The notes beneath the pieces were generated by a model. The model was given only the letters and a program-made list of their open reading frames with translations, was not told where the DNA came from and made no database searches. Both the position numbers and the translations under genes were made by a program. 64,000 nucleotides of DNA from Liolophura sinensis (lineage: Eukaryota; Mollusca; Polyplacophora; Chitonida; Chitonidae): the NCBI RefSeq assembly GCF_032854445.1, contig NC_088300.1, positions 37,786,458-37,850,457 of the forward strand, written 5' to 3'. Positions 7,370 to 64,000 of the stretch are shown piece after piece; positions within the stretch are counted from its first letter, which is position 1; every line of letters begins with the position of its first letter.

Positions 7370-10300
7370 CGGCTGCTGAGAACAGAGAAGATGGAGATGA
7401 TAAGGTAAATACTTTGTGTCTGTGAGCCAGTTACTGTGTAAGGATGGATGGATTCCTATGGGCATAGAATGCTGCGGTTCTAAGAGACCAGATGTGAAAA
7501 ATATGACCATAACTTTGCTGTAGTAGTACGGACAACTTATCTTTTTTGACAGATTCACAACAACAACAACAACAGGCGAAATAGAATAGATCATGAACAT
7601 GGGAATAAGGAAGTAAGATTTAGGTTGGTACACGTTGTTTCTAACAGATTAGAAGGTTATAGATGCCTATTTGAGGAAAACTATCCCGTATATCAAACCA
7701 AACTCGGTATGTATGTATGAATGCTTGGGGTTTAATGTCGCGAAAATGGTTGGATTTTGAGAAGAGATGCTATCAGTACCTGCTAAATTTGTAACCATTG
7801 ATATTAATACATTTATCATGACTGGACAGAAATTCAATCTTCTAAAAAAACAAAAAGCAATCAGACAAAAAGTTGCATTGCTGATAAATGTTTTAATAAT
7901 ACGTGTATAACTAGATGAACAGACATTTTGCTTGCCACATTGATTAGAATATCATTTTATCGATAATAGACCTATTCAGTTTGGTAATTGAGTCATTGAA
8001 TTTGGTAAGGCTAGCCAACAACTAATTCAACAATGTTAAATGTAATACTTCCCTTTTTTATATTTCTGACATTCATTTGGGCGGTAGACATTGAACTGGT
8101 GATACATGCTTTTCTGAACGAAAACTTTTTGGTTGATAAAGCCTACTTCTTTCGCTGTAATCAACCTGGTACTTTCTCTAATGTATAACCTGCATCCCTT
8201 CAGCCAGGGATTCTCGTAAATATCCACATTTTAGTACACTTTGGAGTCGTTTTCCAAGAAGACTTGCCCCTTCTAAGTGAAACATAAATTTTGAAGTGTA
8301 AAATATACCAAACCAAACTTTATACACTAGTGGATGCTGAAGGGAAATAACTGTGGGAAATTTTGTTCAGTATACGTGCTGTGACAACACGTCTCTTAGA
8401 GCCATTATTGCTGTTGTCTTTGTTCAATAATATTATTCTGCATATTTTACTAAAACACACAGAATTAGCTATTGGTGGAAAGATATAAAAGTTGAAATTT
8501 TAGAACGAGGCTCCGGAGGCATCCCATTTCTAAAATTTCAACTCTTCTGCATCTACCTGGCTAAAATGAACAACTAGATAAAGAGTCATTATTTCTAATC
8601 TGTTTTGCCTGCTTTAAACTTTTACATATTTATTTAGGAATGAAAGCTGAGCAAATGAAGCACAATCAAATAACATCTTCCCCTCCATGCTATACATTCA
8701 CTTGTCAGCAAATGTGCCAGCCTCTGAAAATGACCAACTTTCCATCGGAACCGGGGGTGAATAATGTATGCAACAAATCAATTTTAATTATGTGTTTCCC
8801 CAATTTCTTATTAGTTTTTGCATAATCACTTAATGAATTTAATTGACAAGTGGGATGAACATCTGTGACAACCCCCCTACTTCAAAATGATGTTGCCCTA
8901 GGCCAAGTATTGCAATGTGAGCCGCAACCAGAGGTGATTGTCTTTGATTTCCTCCTGGACGTTGAGTGTTGCATGTAGTTACGAGAAAAATCCTAAGTAT
9001 AATAGAATTAAACTTTTCGGAGACCCCCAACGACTTTATTTTCACACTAAATTTTCCCTAGATACAATATATGTGCTGTGTTAGTTTGTAACCTGTATTT
9101 TAAAAACTAGTAACTGGGAACTAGTTCTATTTAAAAAAACTCATTAAAGTTTGACCCTTGGCCTATCTTGTTGACCGCTGAGCCATGTGATGTCATGCCA
9201 GTGAGATCTGCCGAGATTATATGTATTGAAAGCCCTGATGTTGCCCTAGGCCGAGTATTACCCCCAACGACTTTATTTTCACACTAAATTTTCCCTGGAT
9301 ACAATATATGTGCTGTGTTAGTCTGTAACCTGTATTTTAAAAACTAGTAACTGGGAACTAGTTCTATTTAAAAAAACTCATTAAAGTTTGACCCTTTGCC
9401 TATCTTGTTGACCGCTGAGCCCTGGCCGTGTGATGTCATGCCAGTGAGATCTGCCAAGATTATATGTATTGAAAGCCCTGCAAAGTATTGCTGAGTCCAT
9501 GTGTTCTTTCCAAAATCCATCATATGACTTTATCTGTAATTACTCCTACTACCCCACCTTTTGGTTAGCACCCTGAAAGTCATATAAGTAAGACAGTTTA
9601 ACAACGACAAGTTTGAAAGATACCGCAGCTGTAATAAATCCTGGAAAAGCATGTAAAGCATATATAGTGTCCGGCGATACAATAATGGATTTTCGGACAC
9701 ATACATACATGACGCAAACACTCTACTGTCTGGTTTATCCGACATAAATTGGACTTCTATTGAATGATGGTGGTACCTGTGGAGAATTTGGCACGGTTTC
9801 ACAGTCTATAGACAATAAATTCTTATAGCAAAGTCAAGTAAAACTGGCTACGATTGGGCCAGAGGATTGTGGTGGCTCACCAGTGAAAATAACAATCGAG
9901 CTAATCTTCTATGTTTAAAAAAAGTATAACCGGCAGAAATAAATAAGGTTTGAATTATATTTGATAGAAACAGCGATTGGTAACACATAGAAATGCCAGT
10001 TTAAACTTTGTCTGAGTCCTGTTACAGGCATCAAGGTACGCCATCAAGCTAAGGCATCAAGGTAGTGTCACAACCAGCTGTTTCAAACAAGTAACTAAAC
10101 AACATTCCAGAAGTGAAAATCCAGCCTTTTTTTCCTCTTCATGTGATATTCTCGGAGGATATAATACTCATGCTTTGGCCATTTTATTAGTTTGCATGGC
10201 TGAATTAGCAAGTTGTATACGACTACAATAGAGCCCTCTGTAATCAATGGGTGTTTTTCAGGAGATCTAGTCCATATTTTATAAATCCGAGGCATTGTAG

Positions 10301-13300: not shown

Positions 13301-16300
13301 AGTCGTAATCATCACTGGGTCCATGGCGATATTTAAATTTTTGAACTCCTCATCTAATCTAAATTTGGCGTGAGATTTCACAGTTAATCATTTTTCCTAG
13401 AGGCAAGTCAATGAAAATAAGTTCATATGATTGGTCAGTGTTGAATTCTGTAAGCTGTCAGTTACCTGTAAGATAATTTGGCACACATGACTGACTACCA
13501 GAAAATGTGATGAGGAGTGGCCGTTACCTTTTCACCAATACATTGTTTAAAATTGTTGTAATATGAGTGAGTGAGTGCTTGAGGTTTAACGTTGTACATA
13601 ATAACTTTTCAGTCATGTGAAGATGAAGGAGTCCTTAGAGGCATGTTATGTGGCTCCTTGTAGCAGGACGGATTTCCACAGCTCTTTTATCTTGTGCAGT
13701 ATATATTACAATATACTGTTAAGGGTCAACCAGACGTTGCACTATCCCCTTCATGCTGAACGCCAAGCGAGGAAGTTACAACTTCCTCTTTTAAGGTCTT
13801 AGGTGTGACTCGACCCAGGATCAACCCTGGATCTACTGCCTCCTGAAGCGGATTGCAATATAAAGCTGTTAATGGACATCAGATTTCACACATGTGAACA
13901 CAATGTTCAACCCGTGCACCTTCAGTTTTGTGAAATCTTCCCAGTATACTGCTGGCTGCTGCCATATGAGTGAAATATTCTTGAGTACTGCATAAAAACC
14001 ATGAGTACATTTGATATATATCTGTAAAAAATATGCTCTTTACTTTCGATGCTCACACATGACCATGAAACAGATAGCCATTTGAGACCTGCCGCACCAT
14101 TGGTCATCTTCTTGATCACAGCCAATGAAAACATAGGTTTTTGGTATGGCTGTTGATTCCACACATTCAAGATTTAGGAGTGAGAGTAGGCTTCTGTTGT
14201 TGCAATGATTTTCAAGCAAGAAAGAAAGTCAGTTAGTACATTTCAGGAGGGATTAGTGAGCTTACTGTTAGGAAATTTGACTTAGATTTCACGGATTTGG
14301 AATCCCTGATTCAGGTAGGGCAACATCGTGCGATGGTCGTTATCATACTCGACTACTGATTGATTTACGGCACATCATGGCGAGAAAATTTGAGAGTTTC
14401 ACGAATTTGTGTATTTAATTGAAAAGCTGTGCTTTCATACCGCTTTGCATGACACCAGTTAGAGTTAGGAGCCTATCTCACAAGTCTGCAGCCCCACGAG
14501 CCTTGTCCATACCCACACCACCCGTCACGCGGTATGCTGCTAAGTGATCAGTGGTATGAAAACAAGTTGCTCCCCCTAATCGCAGCATGGCCTTCTATGT
14601 TCGTGTAGGTCGGGGCAGTTTTATTGAGTTGTGACGTCTTGCAGTAAGTTGAGCTGGTCCCTTTCTAGGTTAAACCTATGTTCTTGTCAATGCATCCCAA
14701 CAAAACCGCATCAAAATTTCATTGAATTTTTTTCATACGCAGTCACCAAAAATTGGTGCTATGCATGTGATATTTTTTGTAGGCATGAATTACTGCAGAG
14801 TCATATTGTCTTCTTATATTATTCATTCTTATCAGCGCATGCTGGCAAAAACCATTTGATCTTTTTGTCCTCATTTGTGGGTATGCACCATATTCAGATG
14901 ATTACCAATGGTCAGTTTATTGTTAAGGCACATGTAAATGATTGCTAAACTGAAAAATTAACTGGAGGTCTGTGTCTATTTTAGATGGAGGTCTCCCTAT
15001 GTAACCCTTGGTGTATGGCTGCTTTGTAATATTGGAGGAGTGCTGCTGACTAAAGGTATGGGGCGTTTGTGGAAACTTTGTCCGTTGTCCTAGTGATGTC
15101 AGTTTTTTGACTATCAGGTGTTTTGTGGAGTGGTTATTTCTTTTGAGTTCATTGTGCATAAGAGTGAAAAAGTGACATTATCAGTGTCAGCAAAATTGAT
15201 TGTACAAATTTTCATTGGTCGAACAGCTCTACACACAGCAGAGACAGTATTTATATTATTGTTCATGGAAATTATATTGTTGTCTGTTTTGACACCACTC
15301 ACTCTCTTACTGTATATATGTTGTCTTGTATCTCGGTATGTTCATATGGTTTGATAATGATGTAAGAACCTACATCGAAACGTCAATCTCTGTCAATCTA
15401 TACCATCCCAATTCCTAAATGCCTCTGAAAGAAGCTATATTGTTGTATGCTGAAGACCTGAGCAGGGAAGTGATTGGGCCTTGCACACCCCTGCACCCTA
15501 CATTTACGTGTAAGTCATTCGTAAATACAACCATCTGCCAGCAACCTGGGGAAGGTCGTGGGTTTCCCCTGGGCTATGCCCGGTTTCCTCCCACCATAAT
15601 GCTGGCCACCGTTGTATAAGTGAAATATTCTTGAGTACAGCGTAAAACACCAATCCAATAAATAAATAAATAAATACAACCACCACAGTTAAAACCTGAT
15701 CTCCTTGAATGAATTTGGTAAATTTTGCATTCTTAAGGGGTTACAGAATCATTTATTGTTGGGTTTGCTTAGGGCTTTGCCTGGCTTAAGCTGAATTTTA
15801 GGTATGACGGATTTAAACAAGCCTTATCAAGGCTGCAGGGTTCATAACCCAGAAAATCCTACCTCAACTTTCAGCCAATCAGCACTGAATCTGTCCCTTT
15901 AAAGTCCTCACCTTCCTGACACTGTCACAGTAACAACAATTTGTTACAGCTTAATACGATGGTACAAGCATTTTCATTGGTCAGTCTTGATTATATTGAT
16001 AAGTCACCTCTTAGTCGCTGTATTAGATTTGCGATCTTTTTCAGCAGTGGTGGTGGGTCAAAATCTAAGGACCTCAGCATGAGGCGAATACTGCATATAC
16101 ATGTACAGTGACATGTAGAACTGAGTGACATAAAAAGTCAAAGTAGCGATGGCAACACAAAAACTCCCAAAATTTCAAAGGGTGTCTGATGAAATTGTAA
16201 TTTGCATATGCTCTTAATGGTTATTTGACATGTTGGTTGATATTTAAAAGTTTCCCCTCCTACTCCCCTTAATACACATGACAGCCACACTTACCGGTAA

Positions 16301-19300
16301 TGACAGCCACACTTACCAGTAATGACAGCCACACTTAGCGGTAATGACAGCCACACTTACATAGGAGACAACACAGGATTTATTCAGCATCATAGCAATC
16401 TGCTAAACTAACACAGACATTTTGGAGGGTATGCTGTCACGAGTCATGTATAAGAAGAACATTATCATACGGCCATTACTCATTCCTTCATTAGTTTGTA
16501 CCCATTGCTGTATCAAAACGATCAAAACTATCCAGCTGTGTTGGACATCAAAGTTGGTTCTTTCAGCCCTGTCTTACTTGTTGAACACCCTGTTTTTGTC
16601 TGATTATTGGGCTGACCACACTACTAATGTCATCATAGCGTTGCTAATTTTCACATACATTTATTGTCCTTGAATCTGTTTCTTTGCCTTTTGTGCATCT
16701 GCAACTTGTTGCAAATTAAAACCCATTAAAGGTAGAAATGATAGGTGTTTTGATCATATTCACTGTTGTTTTCATTGCTTACTTTTTTGTCAGTGAACAG
16801 AAATGAATACAAGAATGGCTCCTAAAGCTTCCTAGGCTTATAAGTAGAGGTCACACTGTTTAAAAATTTCCACACCTTGGAAAAACCTTGAAATTTAGAC
16901 TACAGAACCAACAGACATTCTCGTGGGGGAACTTTAAGCGTTAACAAGTTGAGACTATTTTTTCCAAGTGGCCTGGGAAAATGTGAATTTCTGGCCTGAA
17001 AAGCCTTGAAGAAACCTGGAAATTTGAAATCCTTGAAGTTTGAAGCATCAGTTGATAGATCTTTGGTAGCTTACTCCTGTATCCATCACTCACAGAAATA
17101 TATCACATGACCTTTACAAGTAATAGCTAATAAAAAATACAAACGCTAATGGTGCATATTTTTTGTACAAAACGTAACATACTGTTGTGCTTTATTTCAG
17201 GTACTGTGTTTGTCTTGGTGGCCTTCATGATTTTCCTCCTCTCCGGGATCAGTTTGTTTCACGTCCACACAAGAATTCTTGACAAGATTTTACCGAACAC
17301 AGGTACAGACATGGAGGAGGACCAGAGCTCAGGAGTGTACACTGCAACAGAAAATATGCAGTCCATCAAAGAGTTCAGAGTAAGGTACGATCTCATGAAA
17401 ATTGTCATTATCTGGTGACAAAATATAGCTAACATTTTATCCCATTTTAGATGTTGGATAATCAATATAATTTGAAACTTCCGTAGATTCACCACAATCA
17501 TGCCAATGGTGGACAGACCTTAATATGAAATGATATGCAATTCTCCGTTAAAGTGCAACCATTCAATCTGTCACAGATGTAATATATAATTCCTGTATTT
17601 TATATACTCTTATATGACTTGCTGTTAATCAGTGCGGTCATCATCGTCATATGACTGAAAAATCGTAAAATACCATGTTAAACCCCACGCACTCACTCAC
17701 TCAATGCAGTCGTGTTCTTTATGTACCCCAGATTAGGGGGGATTAACCCTCTGATTAACCCACAGCGATTACCTGCTGTGAATACACAGGTCTCTTGTAA
17801 ATGTTCATTGCATCATATCTGCTACCCTTTGTCTATAAACCTCTGCCCATATATGCAGTGTGGGCCTTGTATATATGTTGACAAAAATAACAGCCTCATC
17901 ACCCCGTTGGGGAACCATTGAGAGAGGGGTTTACAGGCAAATTTTTGTGCAGAACTGTCCAAAGAAAACACTGATTTTTGCTTTTATCTGGGACTAATAA
18001 CACTTATGAAGATCTGTATATCTGTCAGAGCTTTCATGGAGCCATATAATTTTAAAAATGGTACATAAGTAGGTTGATCTATTCTCATTCTGACTGGGAG
18101 CAGGGCATTTCTTTAGTTGATAAGACATCTTAGTCATTATTTTGGTTTTGAGTCTTGGTTTTTGAGTGTTGAAATGTTTTTATTTCACGTTCATTTTTCA
18201 ACATAATACTTTGAAATTTTTCACACGTAGCTGAATGCTGAAAGTAGAACCCCAGGACCGACCCAAGTCTAGATAGATAGTTTGATGTCCCCTGAACTGA
18301 TTCTGATAATTTGAAATGTAAAAAAAAAAAATGGAAGAAAACTACAGAATTTGGGGATATTTTAAGGATGCGAAGCCATGCCAAATCTCCAAGAGTATCA
18401 CCATCATTCTGTGGATGTCCAATTGTTTCAGACAAACTACATGTGGAAGGTGCTGCCTCTGTGTCATCTGCATGTATGATAGCCATTATGTGCTCGAAAA
18501 TCTAAATGAAACTAGTCAACATATATTTTTTTAAATGAAGTTTACAGACTAACATAGCATAAATATTGTTATAAGATCTGGGGAAAATTTAGCGTGAAAA
18601 TAAAGTCGTTGAGGACTTAAAATGGTCCCACAAATATTAGTTAAAGGTTTTTAAAATTTCCCATGCATTTGAAATTTTGAGATGAACATTAAAAGGCTCT
18701 AGGAATTTTTTTATTTCAATTTAAACAAAAAAATATGCACCTGGACAATAAAATTCAGAAAATATTAACAATTGGTACAAAAAAAATGTTTTTTTTCTTT
18801 TTATTTTCACAAGTACGAAAGTTAGATTAACTTTGAAACTATTTTTGAAGTCAGCAATCATCAGAATTCTTGTATACATATGAATATGTGATTAATATTT
18901 TGGGTTACACAAGGCGAGAGTTTGCTTAAAGCACACATAAAGTGCATTGGCTTTATTTCTTAACATGCAGTTTAGAACATGTAATAACATAACAGTACAA
19001 CAAAAATTTTCAGCATTCGTTTCAGGGGGTAAAAATGTCTTCAAAGTATAGTTTTCTTAAGGTTTCAGCAGTCATCCCGGAAATTATGTACCTTGCAGTG
19101 GTGACATCAATGTTGATTCCTGTTTAAACGAACTCATTGGGGGACCGGAGTGAATAGGGATGGGGAATCAAAGCGAGTGAAGAGGGGTTGAGAGTAATAG
19201 AGTAATGGAAAACATGCAGTGTCTGTGTATGTCAGTTTGCCTGCACTGTATATTCTTGTATATAGGGCTAGCAGCCAGCCGACAGCACATCAGGTGCAGT

Positions 19301-29548: not shown

Positions 29549-32500
29549 ATGGTGGAAATACTCAGCGGGATATTTGACGATTCGGCCAGTTCTGTGCTTG
29601 CCTTTCTAGCCGCTGGAACGGTGTTCAAAATCGGGGCCTTTCTCTGGCTTCGTAAGAAAAAGGATGAACGGTTTGTGCCCGTTGGGCAGGTCACTCAAAT
29701 TAACCTGTTCCCGGTGAAGTCGTGTAAAGGCATTCCAATCCGGTCGGCGAGGGCCACAGAGATTGGGGTTCTTTACGAGGGGGTGCAGGACAGGTGAGCC
29801 TGCGTAGATGTCCACGGAAGTCCCATCTGAGGATGGCTTACGTAATATTTAGGCCCAGTATACTCATATGTGACAAGCGCTATCACTTTACTGGCCTCGG
29901 CGTCCAATAGCAATTATAAGAAACGTTTAGCATGGTACATTCGTGTCGCAGGGGAATTTGTGGAGGGGGAGGTTGTCATAAACGTCAGGTGAGGAGGGGG
30001 GGGGGGCCTATAGGGGAGTAGGGGAGGATCCATCCCCCCCCATCCACTTTCTCTGATGCACTGCCCATGCATATCAATGGAAGTTAACTTTTAACTCAAT
30101 GAAAGTGGGGGGGGGGGGGGCAGTGTCAGGGATGCTCAAATACTATGTATCTTTAACAGCTGGCTATATTGGACTGGTATGGTTGTGATGATAGAACGTC
30201 AAAGAGAGATCGGGGGCACTGCCCCACAGTGTGTTGGATGTGATGCTCAATACGGCATCAAACATATCCTTGTGAAAGACTTTGCTCCTGTTCGGGAAAA
30301 GTTCTACACAGTCATCACTATATTCGATATATTTGACATCATTGCTGGCAGTGCTGTTATAAATTATTTCAAGGCCATTGGCCTATATCATATGCCTATT
30401 GCATATGAATATGAATTTAGAATCCAGCTGGGAATGGAATAATATTTTTTGTGATACAGAGGGAATGAATAGTAAATAAATTTTAAATAATAAAAAAAAG
30501 AAACACACAAAAGGTGCAGTGTAACACAGGCTAAAGCTACAGCTTACCAGTCTGTATATTGCCTGGGCCAGTGCGGTTGGAAATGCTAGGACAAAGATCA
30601 AATGCAAAGTCTGAAAACTCAGAATCTGAAGTCTGGCCAGAGATGTCAGTGCCGATCTCATCAACGTCATCCACTATGGGTTCAAATTGATACAGCAGTA
30701 TATTTGCATCTGAGTAGCTAGAATCCATCGCGAAAATAACATTCAGTATGAACCCCCAGGTTATTTAGGCCAGCTAGGCTTGGGTTGGCCATCTAGAACA
30801 TCACCCGCTGAGCAGTATGGGCGGCCAGCTGCAGATCGGCTAGGGCAATAAATCTACTGTTTTTGGTGGATTTAAAGGCCTTATTATGACTCTCAGAAGC
30901 CCTCTCAGTAACATACAGTTTAAACAAGTTATAATCTTTATAATTAGGGCCAGTAGCTAAATCTGGAAACTAAGCCTTTAATGCATATTACAAAATTGAT
31001 GACTGTGGTCTCTGTTGTATTAGAATCAATGTTGGGGTACTTTATATTTAAGGGTTGTAGACATATGTTAAAAAGTGCTGCTAGCATTCAGTCCAGGTTT
31101 TGCCTATATGTACATGTATAACAGCAGTAACAGATCATGCCTTAATAATTGGCTAGGATATGATGCGGATTCAAACCCGGCCCTGGTCAGGGAATTTCTT
31201 AATTTGCCTGCCTTCATCCATAACCGTCGATAGTTGTGCGTAATTGTATTTGAGTGCCTACTGTTGAAAAAAATCCCTGTGAAAAGCTTCCATTTTTATA
31301 AATTGTATTTACATAATGGATCAGAGGAAGCTACTTGTATGCTGAGACGAATTTTCCTACTTTAAACTTTTATTTTTTCTATTTTAGTTTTCTTTGCTGT
31401 CATACACGTTTGATAGTAAAGCTTGTGGGATACGTCTATTTTGCAGGTCATTTTTGATCATAGGAGCAGATCATGTCTACATCACCCAAAGACAGGAGCC
31501 CAGCATGGCTCTGATTGTGCCCAGTATACATGGCGATATGCTTCACCTGGATGCCCCGGGAATGCAAACCCTCAAAGTGCCAAAACATTTACCTGTGCTC
31601 GACAGTAACCTGACTAAGTTTCAGTAAGTACTTATTAGTTGATTAGTTTAAGTTACGTGTATAGCGATAGGTGAGATTTATCAGCTAAAGGTGAGATTCT
31701 GACAATGCAAACAATGTGAAGAAATGTTAAAAAATGTGACTAAAAATCATATTTGTGGGAAAACTTAACGTTTTATTGGTAAGCTATCATATTTTGTTCA
31801 ATTTATTTAGTTTTAATATAGCTTGATTTGTTTGGGTGCCCAAATCGTTTTTTAAAAACTATAATGGTTCTAGATATGTCTAAGGTATGTTGCTTTAAGG
31901 GTAATTGTTGTGAGCTTTTGCTAAAACACAGCTTGTTTTTTCAGGGTAAAGCTTGACATCCTAAAAGCAGTAGATTGTGGCACTGAGGCGGCAGCCTGGG
32001 TCAGTAAATATTTGAAAAGACCAGGACTGAAACTTCTGTACTATGCACCGGAGTTGCCCAAAAGAGATCTGACTGTAGTGAAGAAAGCTTGGGATACCAG
32101 AGCTAAAACTGGAGACAAGGTGAGAAAGAACAACATAAGGTTCCAGTGTTAAACATGAACAAACAGGCAATGGCACAAGACTTAAGATGGGTGAGAAACT
32201 CTAGGATACTGTGGCTAAACTGTTATTGGACTTCAGATGGGAAACACCAGCTAGATCACTGAAACTGAAACTGAATATTAGCTGAGAAACACCAAGACTA
32301 AAACTGATTCTTAGGTGTGAAACATACAGACGCTAAGACTAAAACTGAACATTAGATGAGAAATGCCAGGATAACAAGATTGAACATGAGATGAGAAACA
32401 CCAGGACACCACGATTGAACATTAGATGAGAAATACCAGGGCACCAAAATTGAACATTAGATGAGAAATGCCAGGACACCAAGACTGAACATTATATGAG

Positions 32501-35500: not shown

Positions 35501-38500
35501 TGTGCACTTCAGGTTGGCTGTTGTCTTTAGCTTTAGATATATATTTTTAAGCTACAACCAGTTTTCCCCATTTCACACAACCTGACAAGTCCTATAAGCC
35601 TTAAAGGACAAGACCAACGAATTTCAACTGGGTGTCAGTTATTTATATATGCTTTTTCATGAACATATCACCAGCACCCACTTAAACCAGTTTAATGTAA
35701 TATATTTTAATATATTCTGGGTACACCTGGGTAGTGTTGTGTACATATAAACCTGCATAAACCCACATCCACGAACTCCACATGGCATTTAGGCCTATAA
35801 CCTGCTGTGTAGTGTTTTGTAGTGTTGGGATTGTTCATTTGCAAACATTTGGGTGTATGTCATGTCCCGTCAAATGAGTGTTATTGACATACATAGATTC
35901 AGACAGCGGTTGACTTGCTGACTGTTTACATTCATACTATAGACCTTTTGGTGTATGACGCGGGATTTTATGGTAGGCTGTATTTCATTAGCGCAGGTAG
36001 CCGAGCATGAGCTGTAGGCTTTGGTTTCAGGTCTGCCCGTTCACGTGCACAGCAAGGGCATTTGTTGGTCATCTTGTAAACTGAAGTGACAAACTCATTC
36101 CCAGAGTGTTTTAAATTTGTGCTTTAGTAGTGGTGGGGCCTCCGTGGCTCAGGTGGTTAGGGCTCTAGTGCAGCATAATGACCCAGGAGTCTCTCACCAA
36201 TGCGGTCGCTGTGAGTTCAAGTCCAGCTCATGCTGGCTTCCTCTCTGGCCGTACGTGGGAAGGTCTGGCAGCAACCTGCGGATGATCATGGGTTTCCTTC
36301 CACCATAATGCTGGCCTCTGTCGTATAAGTGAAATATTCTTGAGTACGGCATAAAACACCAATCAAATAAATCAATCAAATTTAGTAGTAGTGGGTGGGG
36401 CAGATAGAGCATGATTTTATAGGTACTTGAACATATGGCAAAAAATGTAATACGACATTTAAAACTTTATGTACATTTGAAAAAAATTAGGGTTTTTGTA
36501 TATATTATCACCCACCTTTTGGAAATCTCGCTTCCACGTACTGCGCCCTATCATTTCATATTTGTTCATCTGATCATAAGTGACATGTTCCCTATATCAG
36601 TAAAAATAAAATCATGAAGAAACTCACAGATTAAATATAAAGTGACTAACCCTGTCTCACAGTGATTGAGAAGTAAAAAAAAAAAAACAATATAACAACA
36701 TCAACAAAATACCAGTGTTTTATGGGGATACTCGGATAACAGGTCTAGTGCTTGCTCAGTTATTCGTCTGCATGTGCAATATAATAAAAGTAATATATAG
36801 GCATGTGCCAGAACAAAAAGGTTTATCAATTATTGGTATATCTTTGCTATACAACAGAGTCAAAAACAGGTATACATGAATCCAGGTTGTTTGAGCCCCA
36901 TTTTAATTTCATAAAACAAATGTATAGTTATAGTAAACCCTATACGACATAAGTGAAATGTTTTTGTGGATCTGTAGATCAAAGTAACGTCACATAATGG
37001 TGTAATGGATGTAAATCAGCTATGGCTGTACCACTTCACCGAAGTTGGATAATTCCTATGTGACTCTCAGAAGCCATGCAGTTTGATTGAATAGGAGTTG
37101 ACTATATTTCATTGAAATAACGTTTGTTAAAATTACAGATGCTAAGTGCATATATATACCTTTTTAAATGGCATAAAATTTTTTTAAAAAAAGCAGCTAG
37201 TAGCCTATGTATCGAGCAACGTCAACCCTGTAGGGTCAGCAAAATAATCGGCTATCATAAAGCATTACCATGTCCAGTTCTGTAGCTGTACCTGTTGGTC
37301 TATATATGGATCGGTGACCTTGTTATCAGGAAGATTTGAATTTCTGCAGGTTTATGTAAACTACAATTAATCAAGTGTATACAATATACACATCATGATG
37401 GATGTACTTGTAAGTACAAGTAAATGTACGATGTGAGGGACGAATATATATTTTAGCAAATAACTACAACACAGCTCTGCCTTATCCTCAGATTGTGTGC
37501 GCTGACAGTAGTATTGCGTTGTTGTTGCACCATATGCTTCTCTTCCGTTTTAGGGTTAATTAATTACTCGCTTATATTAAAAATGATTTACATGGGCCCT
37601 GGTCTGTTATTTTGGAAATGTCATCTAGAAACAACTGAAAACCAGTCTAAATTTGTTGGTCTTAGCCTTCTGTTTTATTTTCCAGTCTGAGAGTATACAG
37701 TGATTTTATGACCTCATGTGTTCCCCATGAACTTGAGTCAGTGTTCAGGGTATGTCAGCGTAGAATAATATAATATGTCATTTATTTCTGAAACAGGAGA
37801 AGTGGATAGAGTTTCGTATAGGAGGCGCAAGGTTTAGGGCTTTGGATATTTGTGCCAGGTAGGTTCAATTTTAAATTTTGTCATATTTATTCTTCTTTAA
37901 ATGTGTATATTTGCCACCAGTGGCATTAAGCCATATGTATCCTAGTCCTTCTTTAAATATGCTCACAAATGAATGTCTTCGCTAGGTCCATATATTGCAG
38001 TGTAACACAGAAGAATCAAGAACTTTATCTTGTCTCTGAACAGATACATTCAGTGTTATTTAAGCCTTTGGTGATCCTCCAGAAACTTTTAAGCCTTTGG
38101 TGATCCTCCAGAAACTTTTAAGCCTTTGGTGATCCTCCAGAGACTTTTAAGCCTTTGGTGATCCTCCAGAAACTTTTAAGCCTTTGGTGATCCTCCAGAA
38201 ACTTTTAAGCCTTTGGTGATCCTCCAGAAACTTTTAAGCCTTTGGTGATCCTCCAGAAAACTTTTAAGCCTTCGTTGATCCTCCAGAAACTTTTAAGCCT
38301 TTGGTGATCCTCCAGAAAACTTTTAAGCCTTCGTTGATCCTCCAGAAACTTTTAAGCCTTTGGTGGTCCTCCAGAAAACTTTTAAGCCTTCGTTGATCCT
38401 CCAGAAACTTATAAGCCTTCGTTGATACTCCAGAGACTTTTATTTCAACCAAACATATGTGTAGTACATGTATCTAACCTAGTGTTTATCGCCCCATGAC

Positions 38501-41500
38501 TGGAGAGTATTGTCATCTGTCTGTCTGCCTGTCTGCCATACCTACATGTACCCTGTGCATAAAATAGCTGAAGAATGAGTTGCAACGACAAACCAAAAAT
38601 ACCGGTATGCCACAAGGCTATGACTCAGAACCTATGGAATATGTATGGAATCCTGGTATGCCACAAGGCTATGACTCAGAAGCTATGGAATATGTATGGA
38701 ATACTGGTATGCCACAAGGCTATGACTCAGAACCTGTGGAATACCGGTATGCCACAAGGCTATGACTCAGAAGCTATGGAATATGTATGGAATACCGGTA
38801 TGCCACAAGGCTATGACTCAGAACCTGTGGAATACCGGTATGCCACAAGGCTATGACTCAGAAGCTATGGAATATGTATGGAATACTGGTATGCCACAAG
38901 GCTATGACTCAGAAGCTATGGAATATGTATGGAATACCGGTATGCCACAAGGCTATGACTCAGAACCTGTGGAATACCGGTATGCCACAAGGCTATGACT
39001 CAGAAGCTATGGAATGTGTATGGAATACCGGTATGCCACAAGGCTATGACTCAGAACCTGTGGAATACCGGTATGCCACAAGCCTATGACTCAGAAGCTA
39101 TGGAATATGTATGGAATACCGGTATGCCACAAGGCTATGACTCAGAACCTGTGGAATACCGGTATGCCACAAGGCTGTGACTCAGAAGCTAGGGGATGTG
39201 TATGGAATACCGATATGCCACAAGGCTATGACTCAAAACCCATGGAATATGTATGGAATCCTGGTATGCCACAAGGCTATGACTCAGAAGCTATGGAATA
39301 TGTATGGAATACCGGGATGCCACAAGGTTATGACTCAGAACCTATGGAATACCGGTATGCCACAAGGCTATGACTCAGAACCTATGGATTATGTATAGAA
39401 TACCACTATGCCACAAGGCTGTGACTCAGAACCTATGGAATATGTACTCTATTGGTCAGTAATTTTAGTAGCCGTTTTTAATTTTATTGAAATTCAGTGA
39501 TTTCACTCAGTAATTTTGGCAGCCATCTTTAAATTACTGAAAATGAAGACATTTCACTTACTTCCAAAGTGATTAATACACAACATGCAGTGTATCTTTG
39601 ATGCTTTCAGAAGCTTTAGAATAAAGGTTCACATCTCAGGTTCTGATTGGTTAACGCTTTTAGTGCTATGGTGGTACTAAAAATAATAATATTTTCACAC
39701 AGTTATATTTTTCTTACCACTTATCAAACATTTACGACTGTATTGCAGAGTTCATGGTTATAATTATGTAGAGGTACATGTCGTTAACAAGGTATACAAC
39801 CGTTGTCATGAAACAAAGTCACGAAAAGAAAATCGTGAAGATTCCAAGGAATAAGCAGGTTTCAACTTCTTGATCACAGTAGATTCAGGTTAACTTTGTT
39901 TAAAAGTCTCAGAGAAAAAGAGATCTATAACTCCTTTAAGTCAACATTGTTTGATGACGCCCTATTCAGAAGCTTTGGGGTCTTTTCAGGCTTTCATGAT
40001 GAAAGCATTGACTCTCGGCAGCCATGTGGCGCAGGACCAATGTGGTCAAATGTTCAAATCCAGTTTTACCTGCTTTGTCTTTAGCTTTATGTTGGCTGTC
40101 TCATTGGTTTACTGTGGACACATGGGGTTACTCTGGACATTTGGGCCTTCATACATACACCTTAATACAATCATATAAGTTAAAAAATTCTTGAGGAGAC
40201 TTTCAAACACCAATCAGATAAATAAACCGAATCATCAAGCACAGGGTATCCACAGCGGCTTGCCCTAGAGCGATCTGACGGTGGTGTGAAGCTATAGATT
40301 ATGGTTTTAGTGACTTTGCCCTATGTTGTGTGGGTTAGCTACAGGACTCTGACAGTTGATGTGAAGCTCTAGATTATGCTTATAGTGACTTTGCCCTATG
40401 TTGTGTGGGTTAGCTACGGGACTCTTACTGACTCTTACTGTTCTCTTACTGTCAGCTTGGGCCTGTTTCTGAGTAGTTCCAACAGGCAAAACTGAAAGGT
40501 TTTTTATAACTGTATATTCGCAACCTGTTTTGAGGATGAAGAATATAAACATGTAAAACAGATCATCAGGTATTTTTCTTGTCAGTAATATTGTTGTAAA
40601 TCTTCTGTGCATTTAGTGTGTGCATTTTGACGCAAAACTCGTGTAATATCTTTATGTGAAGAACAGAATCATTGTGCAAGGCCAAATAAACTCTCATGTA
40701 CAAAATAGAATTAATATGTATTTACATAAATTATATTTTTGTATTGGCAAAAGTCTAGAGACTTAGGTAGTTTGTTTAGGGTTCACTTCTCCTATCCTGT
40801 GTGAGGTCCCTAGATCAACAGCACACAGTGATAACAGTAGAAGGAGCTACACTTATATTGTTGTTGCTGTGGAGGTGGGGTGGGGGGGGTGGGGCTGTGT
40901 GGCTTAGTTGGTCAGTGCGCTAGTGCAGCATAATGACCCAGGAGCCTCTCACCAATGCAGTCGTTGTGAGTTCAAGTCCAGCTCATGCTGGCTTCCTCTC
41001 CGGTCGTATGTGAGAAGGTCTGGTAAAAAACCTGAGGATGGTCACGGGTTTCCTCCGGGCTCTGCCTGTTTTTCTCCCACTATAATGCAGGCCGGCTTCA
41101 TATAAGTGAAATATTCTTGAGTATGGCATAAAACACCAATCACATAATTAAAATAAATAAATTGTTGTTGCTGATATTTTCGTATAGGTTGTCTCTTGAC
41201 CAGTGTTGGTATTTTCTGGATGTGTATTTTTATCACTGTTGGCATTTTCTATATGTGTCTCTTGACCATTGTTGGTATTTTCTGTAGGTGTCTTGACTGC
41301 TGCAGGTATTTATTGTAGGTGTCTCTTGACCATTGTTGGTATTTTCTGTAGGTGTCTCTTGACTATTGTTGGTATTTTCTGTAGGCGTCTTGACTGCTGC
41401 AGGTATTTATTGTAGGTGTCTCTTGACTATTGTTGGTATTTTCTGTAGGTTATCTTGACCCTTGTTGGTATTTATTGTAGGCGTCTCTTGACCCCTATTG

Positions 41501-43095
41501 GTATTTTCTATAGGTGTCTCTTGACCTTTTATGTTTTTTTTTTCTGTAGGTGACTTTTGACCTGTGTTGGTATTTTCTGGATGTGTATTTTGATCACTGT
41601 TGGCATTTTCTATATGTGTCTCTTGACTATTGTGGGTATTTTCTGTAGGTGCATGTTGACTATTGTTGGTATTTTCTGTAGGCGTCTCTTGACCCCTGAT
41701 GTTATTTACTGTAGGTGTCTCTTGACCATTGTTGGTATTTTCTCTAGGTTATCCTGAGCCCTGTTGGTATTTACTATAGGTGTCTCTTGACCCCAATTGG
41801 TATTTTCTGTAGGTATCTCTTGACCCCAATTGGTATTTTCTGTAGATTATCTTGATTCTTGTTGGTATCTTCTGTATCTTTTGTATGTGTATCTTCACGC
41901 CTAGCGGCTTTTTGTGTACAGTAGATGTATCTTAACTACTGTTGGTATTTTCTTTAGATGCACCTCTTTGCTGGTGCTCTTGTTTTCTGCAGTAAGTGAA
42001 TCTTGACCACTCTCTGTATTTTCTCTAGGTGTGTCCTGACCACTGTTGACCCAGACAAAGGTGTTAAAGATCCAAACAAAGAACCCCTGAAGACTATGGA
42101 AATGTAAGTATTTGTGATTTCATTTTTTTCTGCTTCAGATGTATTGTATGATGTGGAGGTTTCACCCCTGAATCTGTGACGTTCTCAGCTTTCTTAGCAA
42201 ACAGTTGTTCATCATCAGAGTTTGGAATTTTGTCTATCCATCATTGTCCCAGAAAAAGACTTGAAAATGGAATGGAAGTGTTGACTTGCTGAATGTTGAC
42301 TTGCATGGTTTCAGTAAGCATTAGTCAGCAAACTTTTATACTCAGTAAACAGTGACAGTCTCTTTAAATTATAAACAGTGTGGTTACCATAAAACGTTAA
42401 AAATACATTTTTGTAGATGAACAACAACAACAGTAATTCATGAATTTGTAGAGTCAGAGTACCAGCGCAGCATTTTGTTTTGGAAAGTGAAATGCTTCAC
42501 TATCCTGGCAGTTGTCCTTTGAAAGGGTGGAAGTATGTGTCAGTTTCATAATTACATTGTTCAGTTCACTGTCACGTTAAATGTGACCATGAATTCATAA
42601 ATCGAAGAAGAAACGTGGTGATTTGAAAGTTTCATATAACTGAATTCTTCGTCAAACAACGGTCTCTGGACTGCTTGATTTAGATCAAAGCTGTTTCAAC
42701 TTCCCCAAGCTCACATTGTAAACATTGCAAAAGATTTATAAAGAAAAGATTTAAGAAAAAGGACAATGCAATTTCATTGTCTAGACGGGAAATATATGTC
42801 ATTCCTTGACATTAAAAGCCTGTGATCAATTCACTGCAGATGACCTTTATGCACAGCTTGATTGTTTACATGTGCTTGTTGCGTTAGCCTCGTCATCAGG
42901 TGGGCACTTTTCTAACTGTTGTTTACATTTTCTTTTTACAATTTTACTAGTTCCTTTACTTTTATGTATGTTTAATTTTCTAGATACCACAGCTCTAAAG
43001 AGTACAACAATAAGGCGTTGTTTGGACTGGATGCTACAGTGGACTGGCCGGGGGACATCCATGTGGGAGACATAGTGTATGCCCTGAAGGCATGA
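29549..43095 (+). CDS. MTARC1: Mitochondrial amidoxime-reducing component (mARC, MOSC-domain molybdoenzyme), complete, 7 exons
   Basis: mARC is a molybdenum-cofactor enzyme of the outer mitochondrial membrane. With cytochrome b5 and its reductase it reduces N-hydroxylated substrates such as amidoximes. Exons: 29549-29793, 31447-31623, 31945-32119, 35221-35361, 37797-37858, 42029-42103, 42993-43095. All are GT-AG and in phase, giving 325 aa, close to the usual length of about 335. A hydrophobic anchor lies at residues 15-34, then a KKK stop. The N-terminal MOSC beta-barrel begins VGQVTQINLFPVKSCKG (45-61), and the RQEP and DCGTEAAAW motifs follow. The molybdenum-ligand cysteine is C268 in ARCVLTTVDPDKG, placed directly across the exon 5/6 junction. 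The C-terminus is DWPGDIHVGDIVYALKA. Invertebrates often have one mARC gene, so the paralogue number is nominal. Introns 3 and 5 are filled with minisatellites. Confidence 0.96.
29992..30121 (+). repeat. G-rich and C-rich tracts near the start of mARC intron 1
   Basis: There is a G run near 29994-30006, a C run near 30035-30042 that can pair with it, and a further run of about 14 G at 30107-30120. These are candidate G-quadruplex or hairpin structures within 350 bp of the mARC first exon. Confidence 0.75.
30200..30400 (+). mobile_element. Remnant of a LINE ORF2 C-terminal end
   Basis: An open frame reads CVGCDAQYGIKHILVKDFAP, followed by VREKFYTV and, near its end, YFKAIGLYHM. This resembles the Cys-Cys-His zinc knuckle and R-F/Y-rich tail that end many non-LTR reverse transcriptases. 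No polymerase domain lies upstream, so this is a dead 5'-truncated fragment. It lies in mARC intron 1. The family assignment is inference from the motif only. Confidence 0.4.
30548..30728 (-). pseudogene. Isolated first exon, P2X7-C-terminal-like domain protein (antisense in mARC intron 1)
   Basis: A 60-codon frame starts with ATG and ends on a GTAAGC donor (30542-30547). It contains LLYQFEP near residue 12, then an acidic stretch (VDDVDEIGTD and DSEFSDF). A YQFEP motif followed by acidic residues is how I recall many lineage-expanded invertebrate P2X7-C-terminal-domain-like genes beginning. I found no matching second exon to the left before mARC exon 1, so it is probably a truncated copy. 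Function is not claimed. Confidence 0.35.
32190..33830. repeat. Large minisatellite, unit about 35 bp, in mARC intron 3
   Basis: The consensus unit contains GAACATTAGATGAGAAACAC then CAGGACACCAAGATT. Roughly 40 units are present. Variants dominate the right end (AGTGAGCTTTAAGTGAGAAA). One unit is inverted at about 32593-32618, and a block of about 180 bp is duplicated around it. Confidence 0.92.
33877..34480. mobile_element. MITE candidate with about 40-bp terminal inverted repeats
   Basis: The left end (CCCCGTCCAGACTATCCCAC) and the inverted right end (CCCCGCACAGACTATCCAAC) match, and the similarity continues through TTTTGTTGACTCA. The interior is rich in GTTGA/TCAAC words. Flanks CTAAAG and TTTAAG leave the target duplication uncertain. 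No transposase was seen. It lies in mARC intron 3. Confidence 0.7.
34918..35115 (-). mobile_element. SINE family A (antisense)
   Basis: The inverted tail TTATTTATTCATTTTATTGA is followed by the body down to CTTGAACTCACAGCGACCGC. The outer part of the tRNA head is missing. It ends about 105 bp before mARC exon 4. Confidence 0.88.
36134..36378 (+). mobile_element. SINE family A, near full length
   Basis: The head GGGGCCTCCGTGGCTCAGGT is present, with a short internal deletion after GATCATGGGTTTCC. The element ends CACCAATCAAATAAATCAAT. Related flanks TTTAGTAGTGGTGGGG and TTTAGTAGTAGTGGGTGGGG suggest a target duplication. It lies in mARC intron 4. Confidence 0.9.
38059..38445. repeat. 28-bp minisatellite, about 13 copies, mARC intron 5
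   Basis: The unit is ACTTTTAAGCCTTTGGTGAT then CCTCCAGA. Later copies alternate TTCGTTGATC with TTTGGTGATC in a two-unit pattern. Confidence 0.93.
38596..39450. repeat. Higher-order tandem repeat (91 bp = 51 + 40), mARC intron 5
   Basis: The core GGTATGCCACAAGGCTATGA then CTCAGAA repeats throughout. It is followed alternately by a long spacer (GCTATGGAATATGTATGGAA) or a short one (CCTGTGGAATACC). Most long and short units pair into a 91-bp higher-order unit, with an occasional extra 51-bp unit (142-bp spacing). Frames stay open over several units but shift by one each 91 bp. Confidence 0.93.
40140..40225 (+). mobile_element. SINE family A, decayed 3' fragment
   Basis: ATCATATAAGTTAAAAAATT, then CTTGAGGAGACTTTCAAACA and CCAATCAGATAAATAAA, are a mutated copy of the family A end. 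It lies in mARC intron 5. Confidence 0.55.
40289..40436. repeat. Two-copy tandem duplication, about 80 bp
   Basis: TTAGTGACTTTGCCCTATGT with its flanks (GTGTGGGTTAGCTAC) occurs twice, followed by short ACTCTTACTG repeats. It lies in mARC intron 5. Confidence 0.85.
40870..41160 (+). mobile_element. SINE family A with 13-bp target-site duplication
   Basis: ATTGTTGTTGCTG flanks the insertion at 40857-40869 and 41161-41173. The tRNA-like head (GGCTGTGTGGCTTAGTTGGT) is preceded by a G-rich leader. The tail is CATAATTAAAATAAATAA. It is immediately upstream of the 33-bp array in mARC intron 5. Confidence 0.92.
41174..42028 (+). repeat. 33-bp minisatellite made of copies of the exon 6 splice acceptor
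   Basis: The consensus unit is TATTTTCTGTAGGTGTCTCT then TGACCATTGTTGG. The true intron-exon junction at 42028/42029 reads TATTTTCTCTAG|GTGTGTCC, then TGACCACTGTTG, so each unit is a near-copy of the last 12 intron bases plus the first 20 or so exon bases. About two dozen units are present, decaying over the last 150 bp before the exon. The unit length of 11 codons keeps frame where it is exact. Confidence 0.92.
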
Positions 43096-59374: not shown

Positions 59375-60282
59375 ATTAAGACTACTATTGACAGAAGCGG
59401 CCTCTTGAGCTGGTGCCATTAATATACCAAGTATGATGTCTGTAGGTGCAGTATTAATGGAACTGTAGGGTAGACAGCTGTGCTGACTGCTATTCACCTA
59501 ATTGCCCATTGATGTCAGAATCAAGAAGTATGGGTATGACTCGCATTAAGTGCCATTAATGTACCAAAAATTATGTCTGCAGGTGCAGTATTAATGGAGA
59601 TATAGGCCAGATAGCTATTCTGACTGCTATTCACAGGAGCACCCGCTGGTGTTATAATCGAGATGTATGGGTACCACCTGATAGCCCGCATAAACTGCCA
59701 TTATTGTACCAAATAATGGGTCAATATGTGCATTATTAATGGAGTAGTGCGCTTGACAGCTATTCACAGGAGCGCCCCCTGCTGTTGGTCATTAATATTC
59801 CAAGTCTAAAGGCTGTTGGTGCAGTATTAATGGAGATGGGCTATTTTATTACAAGAAATGGTTCCTTTTTGAATAGCCAGCCGATAACTGCCAAAGGTCG
59901 AAAATGTTCTTTGACGTCATATACTTCTTGAGGCCATGTCCAAGTGTAGCGCAAGACTGCCTGTAACTTCTACAACCGTTCCACTTGACACCTGTATTAC
60001 AACAATGAACAAGCACTTTTCTCGTAATTATGAACTACGAGAAATTATCCTCGTACATGCGAGAATACTTTCGTAAATTTCCGTGACACTAATGGGCCTC
60101 CGTCACAGAGTACCTGACTCGTGTGGTGGAAATAAATAATCAGTTTTGAATAACTGATTTGACACTGCTGTTGTCAGAAATTCTCAAAACTGTGGGTAGG
60201 GTGACCTATCTTGTGAGTATGGGTGAAATTATGTGAAATTTGCATGATTTGTCTAAATCACTATCTTACTGTGGTTGTGTCT

Positions 60283-63130
60283 GTATGTCTGTGGTTTCCC
60301 TGTCTGTGTGTTTGTGGTTCTCTGTTTGTATGTCTGTAGTGCCCCTATGTGTATGCCTGTGGTTTCCCTGCCTGTATATCTCTGGTTTCTCTCTCTGTAT
60401 GTCTATGGTTTCCCTGTCTGTATGTCTGTGGATCTCTGTCTGTATGTCTATGGATTCCATGTTTGTGCTTCTAAATGTGTATATCTGTGGTTTGCCTGCC
60501 TGTATGTCTGTGGTTATCTGTCTGTATGTCTGTGGTTTTCGTGTCTCTATATTTGGGGTCCTTTGTCTCTATTTCTGTGGTTTCCCTGACTGAATGTCTA
60601 TGGTTTCCCTGTCTGTATGTTTGTGGTTCTCTGTCTGTATTTCTAGGGTTTCTCTGTTTGTCTGTTGTTTCTCTGTCTGTATGTCTGTGATTTCCCTGTC
60701 TGTACGGCGGTGGTTATCTGTTTACATGTCTGCGTTTCTCTGTCTCTATATCAGCCCTCCACTGTCTGTATGTTTGTGGTTACCTGCCTGTATGCCTATC
60801 CTCTACTATCTGTATACCTATCCTCCACTGTCTCTATATCAGCCCTCCACTGTCTATATGTCTATCCTTCTCTGTCCTTTACTGTCTGTATTTATGTCCT
60901 TCTCTGTCTGTCTTTTAATGTTTGTATTTCTGTCCTTCTCTGTCTGTGTTTCACTGTCTGTATGTCTGCCCTTCTCTGTCCGTCCTTCACCGTCTATATG
61001 TCTGTCCTTCTGTGTCTGTCCTTCACTGTCTGTATGTCTGTCCTTCAATGTCTGTCCTTCTCTGTCTGTGTTTCACTGTCTGTATGTCTGTCCTTCTCTG
61101 CCTGTCATTCACTGTTTGTATGTCTGTCCTTCTTTGTCTGTCCTTCACTGTCTGTATGTCTATCCGTCTCCGTCTGTCCTTCACTGTCTGTATGTCTGTC
61201 CTTCTCTGTCTGTCTTTCACTGTCTGTATGTCTGTACTTCTCTGTCTGTTCTTCACTGTCTGTATGTCTGTCCATCTTTGTCTGTCATTCACTGTCTGTA
61301 TGTCTGTCCATCTTTGTCTGTCATTCACTGTCTGTATGTCTGTCATTCTTTGTCTGTGCTTCAGGGTCTGCATATCTGTCCTTCTCTGTCTGTTCTTCAC
61401 TGTCTGTATGTTTGTCATTCTCTGTCTGTCCTTCACTGTCTGTATGTCTGTCCATCTCTGTCTGTCATTCACTGTCTGTATGTCTGTCCTTCTCTGTCTG
61501 TCTTTCACTGTTTGTATGTTTGTCATTCTCTGACTCTCCTTCACTGCCTATATGTCTGTCCTTCACTGTATGTCCTTCACTGTCTGTATGTTTTGTCCTT
61601 CACAGAATGTCCTTCTCTGTATGTCCTTCACTGTGTGTATGTCTGTCCTTCTCCGTCTATCCTTCACTGCCTGTCCTTCATTGTCTGTATGCCTGTCCTT
61701 CTCTGTCTGTATTTTACTGCCTGTCCTTCATTGTCTGTATGCCTGTCCTTCTCTGTCTGTGTTTCACTGTCTGTATGTCTGTCCTTCTCTGCCTGTCATT
61801 CACTGTTTGTATGTCTGTCCTTCTTTGTCTGTCCTTCACTGTCTGTATGTCTATCCGTCTCCGTCTGTCCTTCACTGTCTGTATGTCTGTCCTTCTCTGT
61901 CTGTCTTTCACTGTCTGTATGTCTGTACTTCTCTGTCTGTTCTTCACTGTCTGTATGTCTGTCCATCTTTGTCTGTCATTCACTGTCTGTATGTCTGTCC
62001 ATCTTTGTCTGTCATTCACTGTCTGTATGTCTGTCATTCTTTGTCTGTGCTTCAGGGTCTGCATATCTGTCCTTCTCTGTCTGTTCTTCACTGTATGTAT
62101 GTTTGTCATTCTCTGTCTGTCCTTTACTGTCTGTATGTCTGTCCATCTCTGTCTGTCATTCACTGTCTGTATGTCTGTCCTTCTCTGTCTGTCTTTCACT
62201 GTTTGTATGTTTGTCATTCTCTGACTCTCCTTCACTGCCTATATGTCTGTCCTTCACTGTATGTCCTTCACTGTCTGTATGTTTTGTCCTTCACAGAATG
62301 TCCTTCTCTGTATGTCCTTCACTGTGTGTATGTCTGTCCTTCTCCGTCTATCCTTCACTGCCTGTCCTTCATTGTCTGTATGCCTGTCCTTCTCTGTCTG
62401 TATTTTACTGCCTGTCCTTCATTGTCTGTATGCCTGTCCTTCTCTGTCTGTATTTCACTGTCTGTATATCTGTCCTTCTCTGCATGTCATTCACTGTATG
62501 TATGTCTGTCCTTCTCTGTATGTCCTTCACTGTTTGTGTGCCTGTCCCTCCCTGTACGTCCTTCACTTTTTGTATGTCTGTTCTTCTCTATCTCTCCTTC
62601 TCCATCTCTCCTTCTCTTTCTGTCCTTCTCTGTTTGTCATTCTCTATCTGTTCTTTTCTATCTGTTCTTCTCTATTTGTCCTTCTCTGTCTGTCCTTTTC
62701 TTTCTGTCCTTCTCTGTCTGTCCTTCTCTATCTGCCCTTCTCTTTTTGTCCTTCTTTGTCTGTCCTTCACTGTGTGTATGTCTGTCCCTCTCTGTCTGTC
62801 CTACACTGCCTGTCCTTCATTGTCTGTATGTCTGTCCTTCTCTGTCTGTGTTTCACTGTCTGTATGTCTGTCCTTCTCTGTATGTCCTTCACTGTTTGTA
62901 TGTCTGTCCTTCCCTGTGCGTCCTTCACTGTTTGTATGTCTGTCCTTCTCTATCTGTTCTTCTTTTTCTGTCTTTCTCTGTTTGTCCTTCTCTATCTGTT
63001 CTTCTCTATCTTTTCTTCTCTTTCTGTCCTTCTCTGTCTGCCCTTCTGTGTCTGTCCTTCTCTATTTGTCTTTCTCTATCTGTCCTTCTCTGTCTGTACA
63101 TATGCCGATCCTCTGTATGTCTGTCTTTGT
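60283..63130. repeat. 2.8-kb CTGTCTGTATGTCTGT-type satellite with 691-bp higher-order duplication
   Basis: Subunits of about 36 bp are variants of CTTCTCTGTCTGTCCTTCAC then TGTCTGTATGTCTGTC. The block from about 61050 to 61740 is repeated almost identically at 61741-62431 (for example GTGTTTCACTGTCTGTATGT recurs at an exact 691-bp offset). The left flank is TGTGGTTTCCCTGTCTG-like and the right flank is TCTATCTGTTCTTCTC-like. Long open frames across it are a by-product of stop-free composition. Confidence 0.93.
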
Positions 63131-64000
63131 CAATAATCTCATTTCAACTTTTATCGACTTAAACAGGTTTCTGGGGTATGTACACAAACCCTATATCTAT
63201 CAGATATGTAAATGAGCTTAATGACAGCAAAGCAGTTTCTGACATATTCCATAATTAACGAATCTGTTAACGGGCACTACTTTTTTCGTTAAGTGACAGA
63301 ACAGAAACCCACTACAATCATATCTCTAAAAGGGCTTAGTTGGGTTAAAACAGTTTCTGACATATAGTTTATAAGGAAGCAATTTTTTCAATGGTCACTA
63401 CAATAATATATCAAATGCATGAACAAAACAATGTAAAGATTTCAGTCTGAAACCATAATTAGCTCTCCAAGAGACACTTTTCAGTTGTGCACAATCTCGA
63501 ATATGCACGGTCTCCTTCAGATTTGAAGAATTCAAAGTTTAAATGATCATAAGAAAGACCAGTGTCTATTGTAAACTATTTTCTAGAAATGCCTTTACTT
63601 GTATAAATTTTTATTTTCACCTCAATAAATTTGCTCTGACATATGACCCCAGGTGTTACTGCTGCAATAAGCCTGTATAGCTGTATCAGCCATTGCTCAT
63701 CTCCCGGTCTCCACTGTTGGTAATTAGTATACATTAGGCTGTACATCATGTCTAACCCATCCTTTCATGTCTCTGGCTGAGGATTCTTGGTTTGATAGTG
63801 TTATTATGTGTATAGTGTGAAGCTATATGATAGCCCTGTTGTGTTTTTATCTTTAACTTTAATGTTTTCGCCAGCATATTCTTTCCTCACCGAATGACAG
63901 TACTAGTCCCGTTGACAAATGCAAGCGTCTATCTACATAACCGTTGATTGGTTAAGTTAGCGATCAAGTTGACAGAGAATCAGTAAATGGCTTTTGTTGT
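63131..64000. other. Right-hand flank, nothing recognised
   Basis: AT-rich unique sequence. The phrase CAGTTTCTGACATAT occurs twice (about 63232 and 63350) as a weak local duplication. No gene, RNA or clear mobile element was seen. Confidence 0.5.

Follow-up and report, generated by a model that had tools for sequence, protein, structure and literature searches.

A mARC gene with a repeat-rich fifth intron

The analyzed stretch of Liolophura sinensis DNA, hereafter the window (64,000 nucleotides of contig NC_088300.1, positions 37,786,458 to 37,850,457 of the forward strand), carries a gene for a mitochondrial amidoxime-reducing component (mARC); its seven exons were located by inspection of the sequence with the aid of the splice consensus. 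The joined exons encode MOSC_N and MOSC domains, and the protein matches the solved mARC1 structure PDB 6fw2, which we take to be human mARC1, at an E value of 1.2e-45. The start of exon 6 encodes CVLTTVDPD, which was aligned to CILTTVDPD of the solved mARC1; the cysteine in this RC-LTTVDP motif is presumably the molybdenum ligand. The parts of the gene considered below are as follows (window coordinates, a slash marking the splice boundary).

29549..29793, + strand: mARC exon 1
37797..37858, + strand: mARC exon 5, with the end ..ICAR and the donor CCAG/GTAGGT
37859..42028, + strand: mARC intron 5, about 4.2 kb, with the 33-bp array and three more tandem-repeat groups
42029..42103, + strand: mARC exon 6, 75 nt, coding for (R)CVLTTVDPDKGVKDPNKEPLKTME(I)
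42984..43095, + strand: mARC exon 7, stop codon included

The three further tandem-repeat groups of intron 5 lie at 38059-38442, 38598-39446, and 40274-40425, with units of 29, 40/51, and 75 bp. Elsewhere in the window, CT-rich tandem repeats totaling about 2.8 kb (60278-63215) contain an open frame of 873 residues, counted from stop to stop.

The 33-bp array repeats the intron 5/exon 6 boundary

A minisatellite (41175-42028) occupies the final 0.85 kb of intron 5 and ends at exon 6. TRF reported a period of 33 at 41175-41877 as well as periods of 66 and 299, and a lag scan of the array for a longer period gave more than 62% identity at lag 33 alone. The array and its surroundings can be divided as follows.

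40870..41161, + strand: SINE-like insertion at the left edge of the 33-bp array, judged by appearance
41175..41865, + strand: array core, beginning with one unit at 41175, followed by 20 regular units that start at 41210
41866..42016, + strand: degenerate exon-proximal remains of the array, with acceptor-like AG at 41956-41957 and 41991-41992
42017..42049, + strand: true junction of intron 5 and exon 6, probably the segment that seeded the array (12 nt of intron and 21 nt of exon)

The array adjoins the true boundary, since its degenerate pieces extend up to 42016 and the junction unit occupies 42017-42049. A sequence-only reading of this locus had already brought the array up to exon 6, and this stands; the start of exon 6 was corrected to 42029, and the array begins at 41175. 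A copy of TTGTTGTTGCTG on each side of the SINE-like element (40858-41173) is a likely target-site duplication.

Each core unit is a copy of the 12 nt that end intron 5 and the 21 nt that begin exon 6. The consensus of the 14 units of exact length, TATTTTCTGTAG/GTGTCTCTTGACCATTGTTGG, is identical to the true junction at 28 of 33 positions (11/12 intronic, 17/21 exonic), while the individual regular units (n = 20) agree with the exon edge at 23 to 28 positions, the unit at 41736 being the closest. When rotation was allowed, the junction matched the consensus at 29 of 33 positions and the runner-up, sought on both strands of the window outside the array, at 22 of 33. The earlier description of the array as an amplified 3' splice site plus the codons for RCVLTTV is borne out by these comparisons. 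Its further details hold in part. A 33-nt step is found in 14 of the 20 regular units (41210-41865), the other six being 31, 32, or 36 bp long. A YAG acceptor, ascribed earlier to every unit, is kept in 19 units and remnants; among the regular units the AG is kept in 16 of 20 and lost in those at 41210, 41243, 41571, and 41604.

Pyrimidine-AG composition is common to acceptors, and a chance stretch of this kind could in principle produce such a likeness. We consider this extremely improbable: the exonic 21 nt alone match the junction at 17 positions, and outside the array the closest rival on either strand of the window reaches 15. Because the junction agrees at 28 of 33 positions overall and at 17 of 21 exonic ones, against 22 of 33 and 15 of 21 elsewhere, the similarity is not mere pyrimidine-AG likeness, and the short match that had been named as the finding that would speak against amplification is ruled out.

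The exon edge as the probable source of the array

The direction of copying was assessed through the solved mARC1 and through chiton paralogs, the latter serving as the view of the pre-expansion state. At least two other mARC genes are present in the genome: a tandem copy downstream of the window gene (matches at C6:37852991-37861050) and a minus-strand gene at C6:53829385-53834978. The exon 6 starts of these two paralogs encode CLQTTVNPD and CTLTTVDPY. Because these residues are conserved in mARC genes with and without the window array, comparison of the coding sequences indicates that the exon 6 edge is most likely the source and the intron 5 array the copy.

The opposite direction, in which a pre-existing array overwrote the exon 6 edge by gene conversion from repeat to exon, had been offered as the alternative and would also leave an array and an exon edge that are contiguous and alike. 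It is disfavored by the conservation of the encoded residues, as the repeat would have had to encode by chance the residues that CVLTTVDPD shares with the solved mARC1 and with both paralogs. The same pattern moreover occurs at the other counted junctions described below, four of which have recognizable CCT3, CCT5, or aldehyde dehydrogenase coding sequence. We therefore regard overwriting as highly improbable.

Exon-edge arrays at other chiton junctions

In the minus-strand mARC paralog (C6:53829385-53834978), the corresponding intron closes with three 130-bp units, each a decoy of that gene's own exon 6 start (C6:53829470-53829860, minus strand; L008). Because they differ in unit length and in sequence, the 33-bp and 130-bp arrays most likely arose independently. 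The acceptor AG has been lost in all three 130-bp decoys, whereas most units of the window array keep it. This may indicate that an intact decoy is sometimes harmful.

Four further junctions carry copies on the donor side. In CCT3, the exon ending ATEMALAQ (LVPGGGATEMALAQ) is followed by units of 66/88 bp (10 copies including the true one), and the exon ending TDNNRIAR by units of about 60 bp (6 copies including the true one). The CCT5 exon ending LAVSKAADK has units of about 109 bp (7 copies including the true one), and an aldehyde dehydrogenase exon ending SVEAGTVW shows a two-copy 37-bp duplication in which the second donor is mutated.

Other repeats lay near exon edges and were not counted. 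One exon of CCT3 (C8, minus-strand gene; L015) has a 27-bp, 43-copy array at 7574-8744 close to its donor and a 41-bp, 13-copy array at 8853-9395 that reaches its acceptor. The 27-bp array had the top score of the CCT/proteasome survey (271) and, once the donor had been corrected, proved to lie wholly within the intron; the acceptor-side array scored 21 and was left out of the count given below, as it includes only six exonic bases. Shortly downstream of the intron 5 donor of the tandem mARC paralog lie repeats of 19 to 57 bp (C6:37859269-37859561; L006 8812-9104), and the 57-bp donor-side array scored 13, within the range of the reversed control (maximum 14). The exon 3 donor of mARC1, the window gene, scored 16, which exceeds the maximum of the control yet falls short of the threshold of 20. 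In an aldehyde dehydrogenase gene (C11:29422206-29422442; L029 307-543), a 79-bp array runs from the coding end onward, as if the stop-codon region were its seed; no splice junction lies at this end of the coding region, and the false donor was removed before the count. Two donor-like arrays in the window, 10029-10064 and 16278-16360(-), have TRF consensus sequences containing GTAAGT or GTAAGC, and by eye no coding exon adjoins them.

Frequency of exon-edge arrays

Junctions were surveyed in the mARC genes, in 45 of 50 listed chaperonin CCT-family and 13 of 21 listed proteasome-family matches, and, as a second set, in all 14 listed aldehyde dehydrogenase matches, that search having scored 13 of 97 first-look candidates. 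The five CCT and eight proteasome listed matches left out include two long-frame, intronless-looking places. Boundaries were mostly assigned by script and were corrected by hand in the mARC genes and in CCT3. Two doubtful end-of-gene donors (L014, L019), junctions with less than 100 nt of flank, and boundaries that the script could not assign were dropped. A junction qualified when its copy score was at least 20 with at least eight exonic bases; in the reversed-sequence control, the maximum score among the 138 first-set junctions was 14.

Six of 159 junctions qualified (95% CI 1.4-8.0%), namely 3/105 in the CCT/proteasome set, 2/33 in mARC genes, and 1/21 in aldehyde dehydrogenases. Without the demand for exonic bases the count was 7/159, the added case being the 41-bp array of CCT3. 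As mARC1 was the starting point, the figure free of this choice is that of the non-mARC junctions, 4/126.

Among random intron points, 19.6% had a copy on some side, and the one-sided rate was 3.35% (3.65% without mARC). The one-sided rate was used because copies at a junction are confined to the intron side; a two-sided comparison (241 of 1500 random points with a score of at least 20 versus 6 of 138 junctions), which would suggest depletion, was set aside as unfair. Binomial tests gave p = 0.66 for 6/159 versus 3.35% and p = 1.0 for the non-mARC 4/126 versus 3.65%.

We thus observed no excess of arrays at the 159 junctions over the matched one-sided rate of random intron points. At this sample size, splice junctions neither attract nor visibly repel repeat formation; modest enrichment or depletion is not excluded, because such effects are still compatible with a small sample of mostly automatic boundaries. 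A preference for splice junctions in the seeding of minisatellites, for example through transcription-linked breaks at exon edges, would fit the fact that several genes are affected, with three junctions in CCT3 alone if the acceptor-side array is counted. We nevertheless hold preferred seeding to be very unlikely, since junctions carry such arrays at the same rate as random points and dropping the eight-base demand yields just one case more.

Origin of the array and comparison with known systems

Taken together, our results suggest that the array is very probably a 'mirage' minisatellite that began across the mARC intron 5/exon 6 boundary as a by-product of repeat-rich introns. Its start would have been a tandem duplication of 12 nt of intron and 21 nt of exon across the boundary, after which the array would have grown and diverged within the intron. 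What is observed is that the units are homologous to the junction, where they lie, and that they have diverged; growth probably proceeded by slippage or unequal exchange. Splicing would hide the array, all extra copies being on the intron side: because of this placement, the mRNA made from the exon-proximal acceptor would be unchanged, provided that the last acceptor is the one normally chosen by the spliceosome, as we assume. Use of a decoy would be expected to lead to a premature stop. Such arrays are then probably by-products of introns rich in tandem repeats rather than of splice sites as special seeds, and the presence of the mARC array is explained without a special function.

In amphioxus, mirages are tandem repeats that span an intron/exon boundary; they are known from Adh3 and the globins BflGb6 and BflGb9, with splice-site repeats in PGBD5 and troponin C (PMC3087553, PMC3902484). 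Their units are reported to measure 10-160 bp (PMC3087553). They occur at 5' and 3' boundaries, many but not all copies keep the AG/GT, the boundary copies escape homogenization, and length instability and mRNA are described (PMC3087553, PMC3902484). The chiton arrays resemble them: in the window gene the units hold intron and exon sequence, the array adjoins the true boundary, and many but not all regular units (16/20) keep the AG, and the unit lengths fall within 10-160 bp (33 bp in the window gene, 130 bp in its minus-strand paralog, and 37-109 bp in the rest). They differ in host, a chiton and hence a mollusc, and in the genes concerned, namely two mARC genes, CCT3, CCT5, and an aldehyde dehydrogenase.

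It has been suggested that new introns can arise from mirages. According to a report on the potato RdRp gene, a duplication across the intron 1/exon 2 boundary led to intron gain (PMC4974935). There, as in the chiton mARC gene, the duplicated segment crosses the boundary and copies the acceptor and the exon start, but the potato case as described is a single duplication with the new intron in use, whereas the chiton array has many copies and showed no sign of a newly gained intron. Ordinary intronic minisatellites likewise have varied, diverged tandem units and occur at comparable frequency at random intron points; unlike them, the chiton mARC unit contains a splice site along with coding sequence. 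Among the papers listed in the literature searches, which left most subscription papers outside their scope, we recognized none on mirages outside amphioxus and none on minisatellites in chiton introns. As far as these searches show, the chiton arrays are the known mirage type in a new phylum. At about 4% of the sampled mollusc junctions, mirages would be an expected product of repeat-rich introns rather than an oddity of amphioxus. The affected genes form a set in which to look for intron gain from duplicated splice sites, and the potato gene shows where such arrays might lead.

Decoy acceptors and their possible use

An acceptor matrix was built from 72 real chiton acceptors, whose 10th percentile was 5.4. 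Seventeen of the 19 mARC1 decoys reach this value, four reach the median, and nine reach the score of the true exon 6 site (8.8). By base composition the decoys thus look competent, and that 17 of 19 score like real acceptors counts against the passive reading set out above. Translation from the 19 decoys toward exon 6 shifted the frame in 14 cases and met a stop before exon 6 in every case. The suggestion that use of an upstream acceptor could insert CLLTIVGIFCR-like repeats in frame consequently fails for plain acceptor use, and an in-frame repeat peptide made by plain read-through is ruled out.

Among the 98 GT sites in 41171-42030, five reach the 10th percentile (5.6) of 86 real donors; the GTGTGT at the true exon 6 start is among these five. 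Two near-identical 18-nt segments are bounded by passing sites.

41288..41305, + strand: hypothetical 18-nt in-frame microexon, acceptor score 9.4, donor CAG/GTATTT with score 6.3
41385..41402, + strand: near copy of the hypothetical 18-nt microexon, acceptor score 8.2, donor CAG/GTATTT with score 6.3

Inclusion of these segments is predicted to insert RCLDCC or RRLDCC in frame, so that an in-frame outcome via microexons in the mARC array appears possible from site scores and reading frame. The decoys might accordingly be used, with acceptors or microexons adding residues beside the catalytic cysteine or tuning mARC via nonsense-mediated decay, and with array length acting as a rheostat. The acceptor scores, the five passing GT sites, and the paired 18-nt segments speak for such use. 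Against it stand the stop met from every decoy, the degenerate state of the exon side of the array, and reports that amphioxus mirages leave regular splicing undisturbed (PMC3087553, PMC3902484). Decoy use is so far unsupported, and we consider it unlikely; the by-product origin remains our preferred reading. A broader version appears quite unlikely: chiton introns would maintain an abundant and constantly replenished supply of exon-edge copies able to act in splicing (about one junction in 25), some of them recruited as microexons or new introns, and in mARC1 the two 18-nt microexons could add RCLDCC or RRLDCC immediately ahead of the segment with the catalytic cysteine and make the protein dependent on the state of the array.

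With some twenty similar acceptors in a row, chiton arrays of this kind offer natural test cases for the choice made by the spliceosome, and annotation pipelines may call false exons within them.
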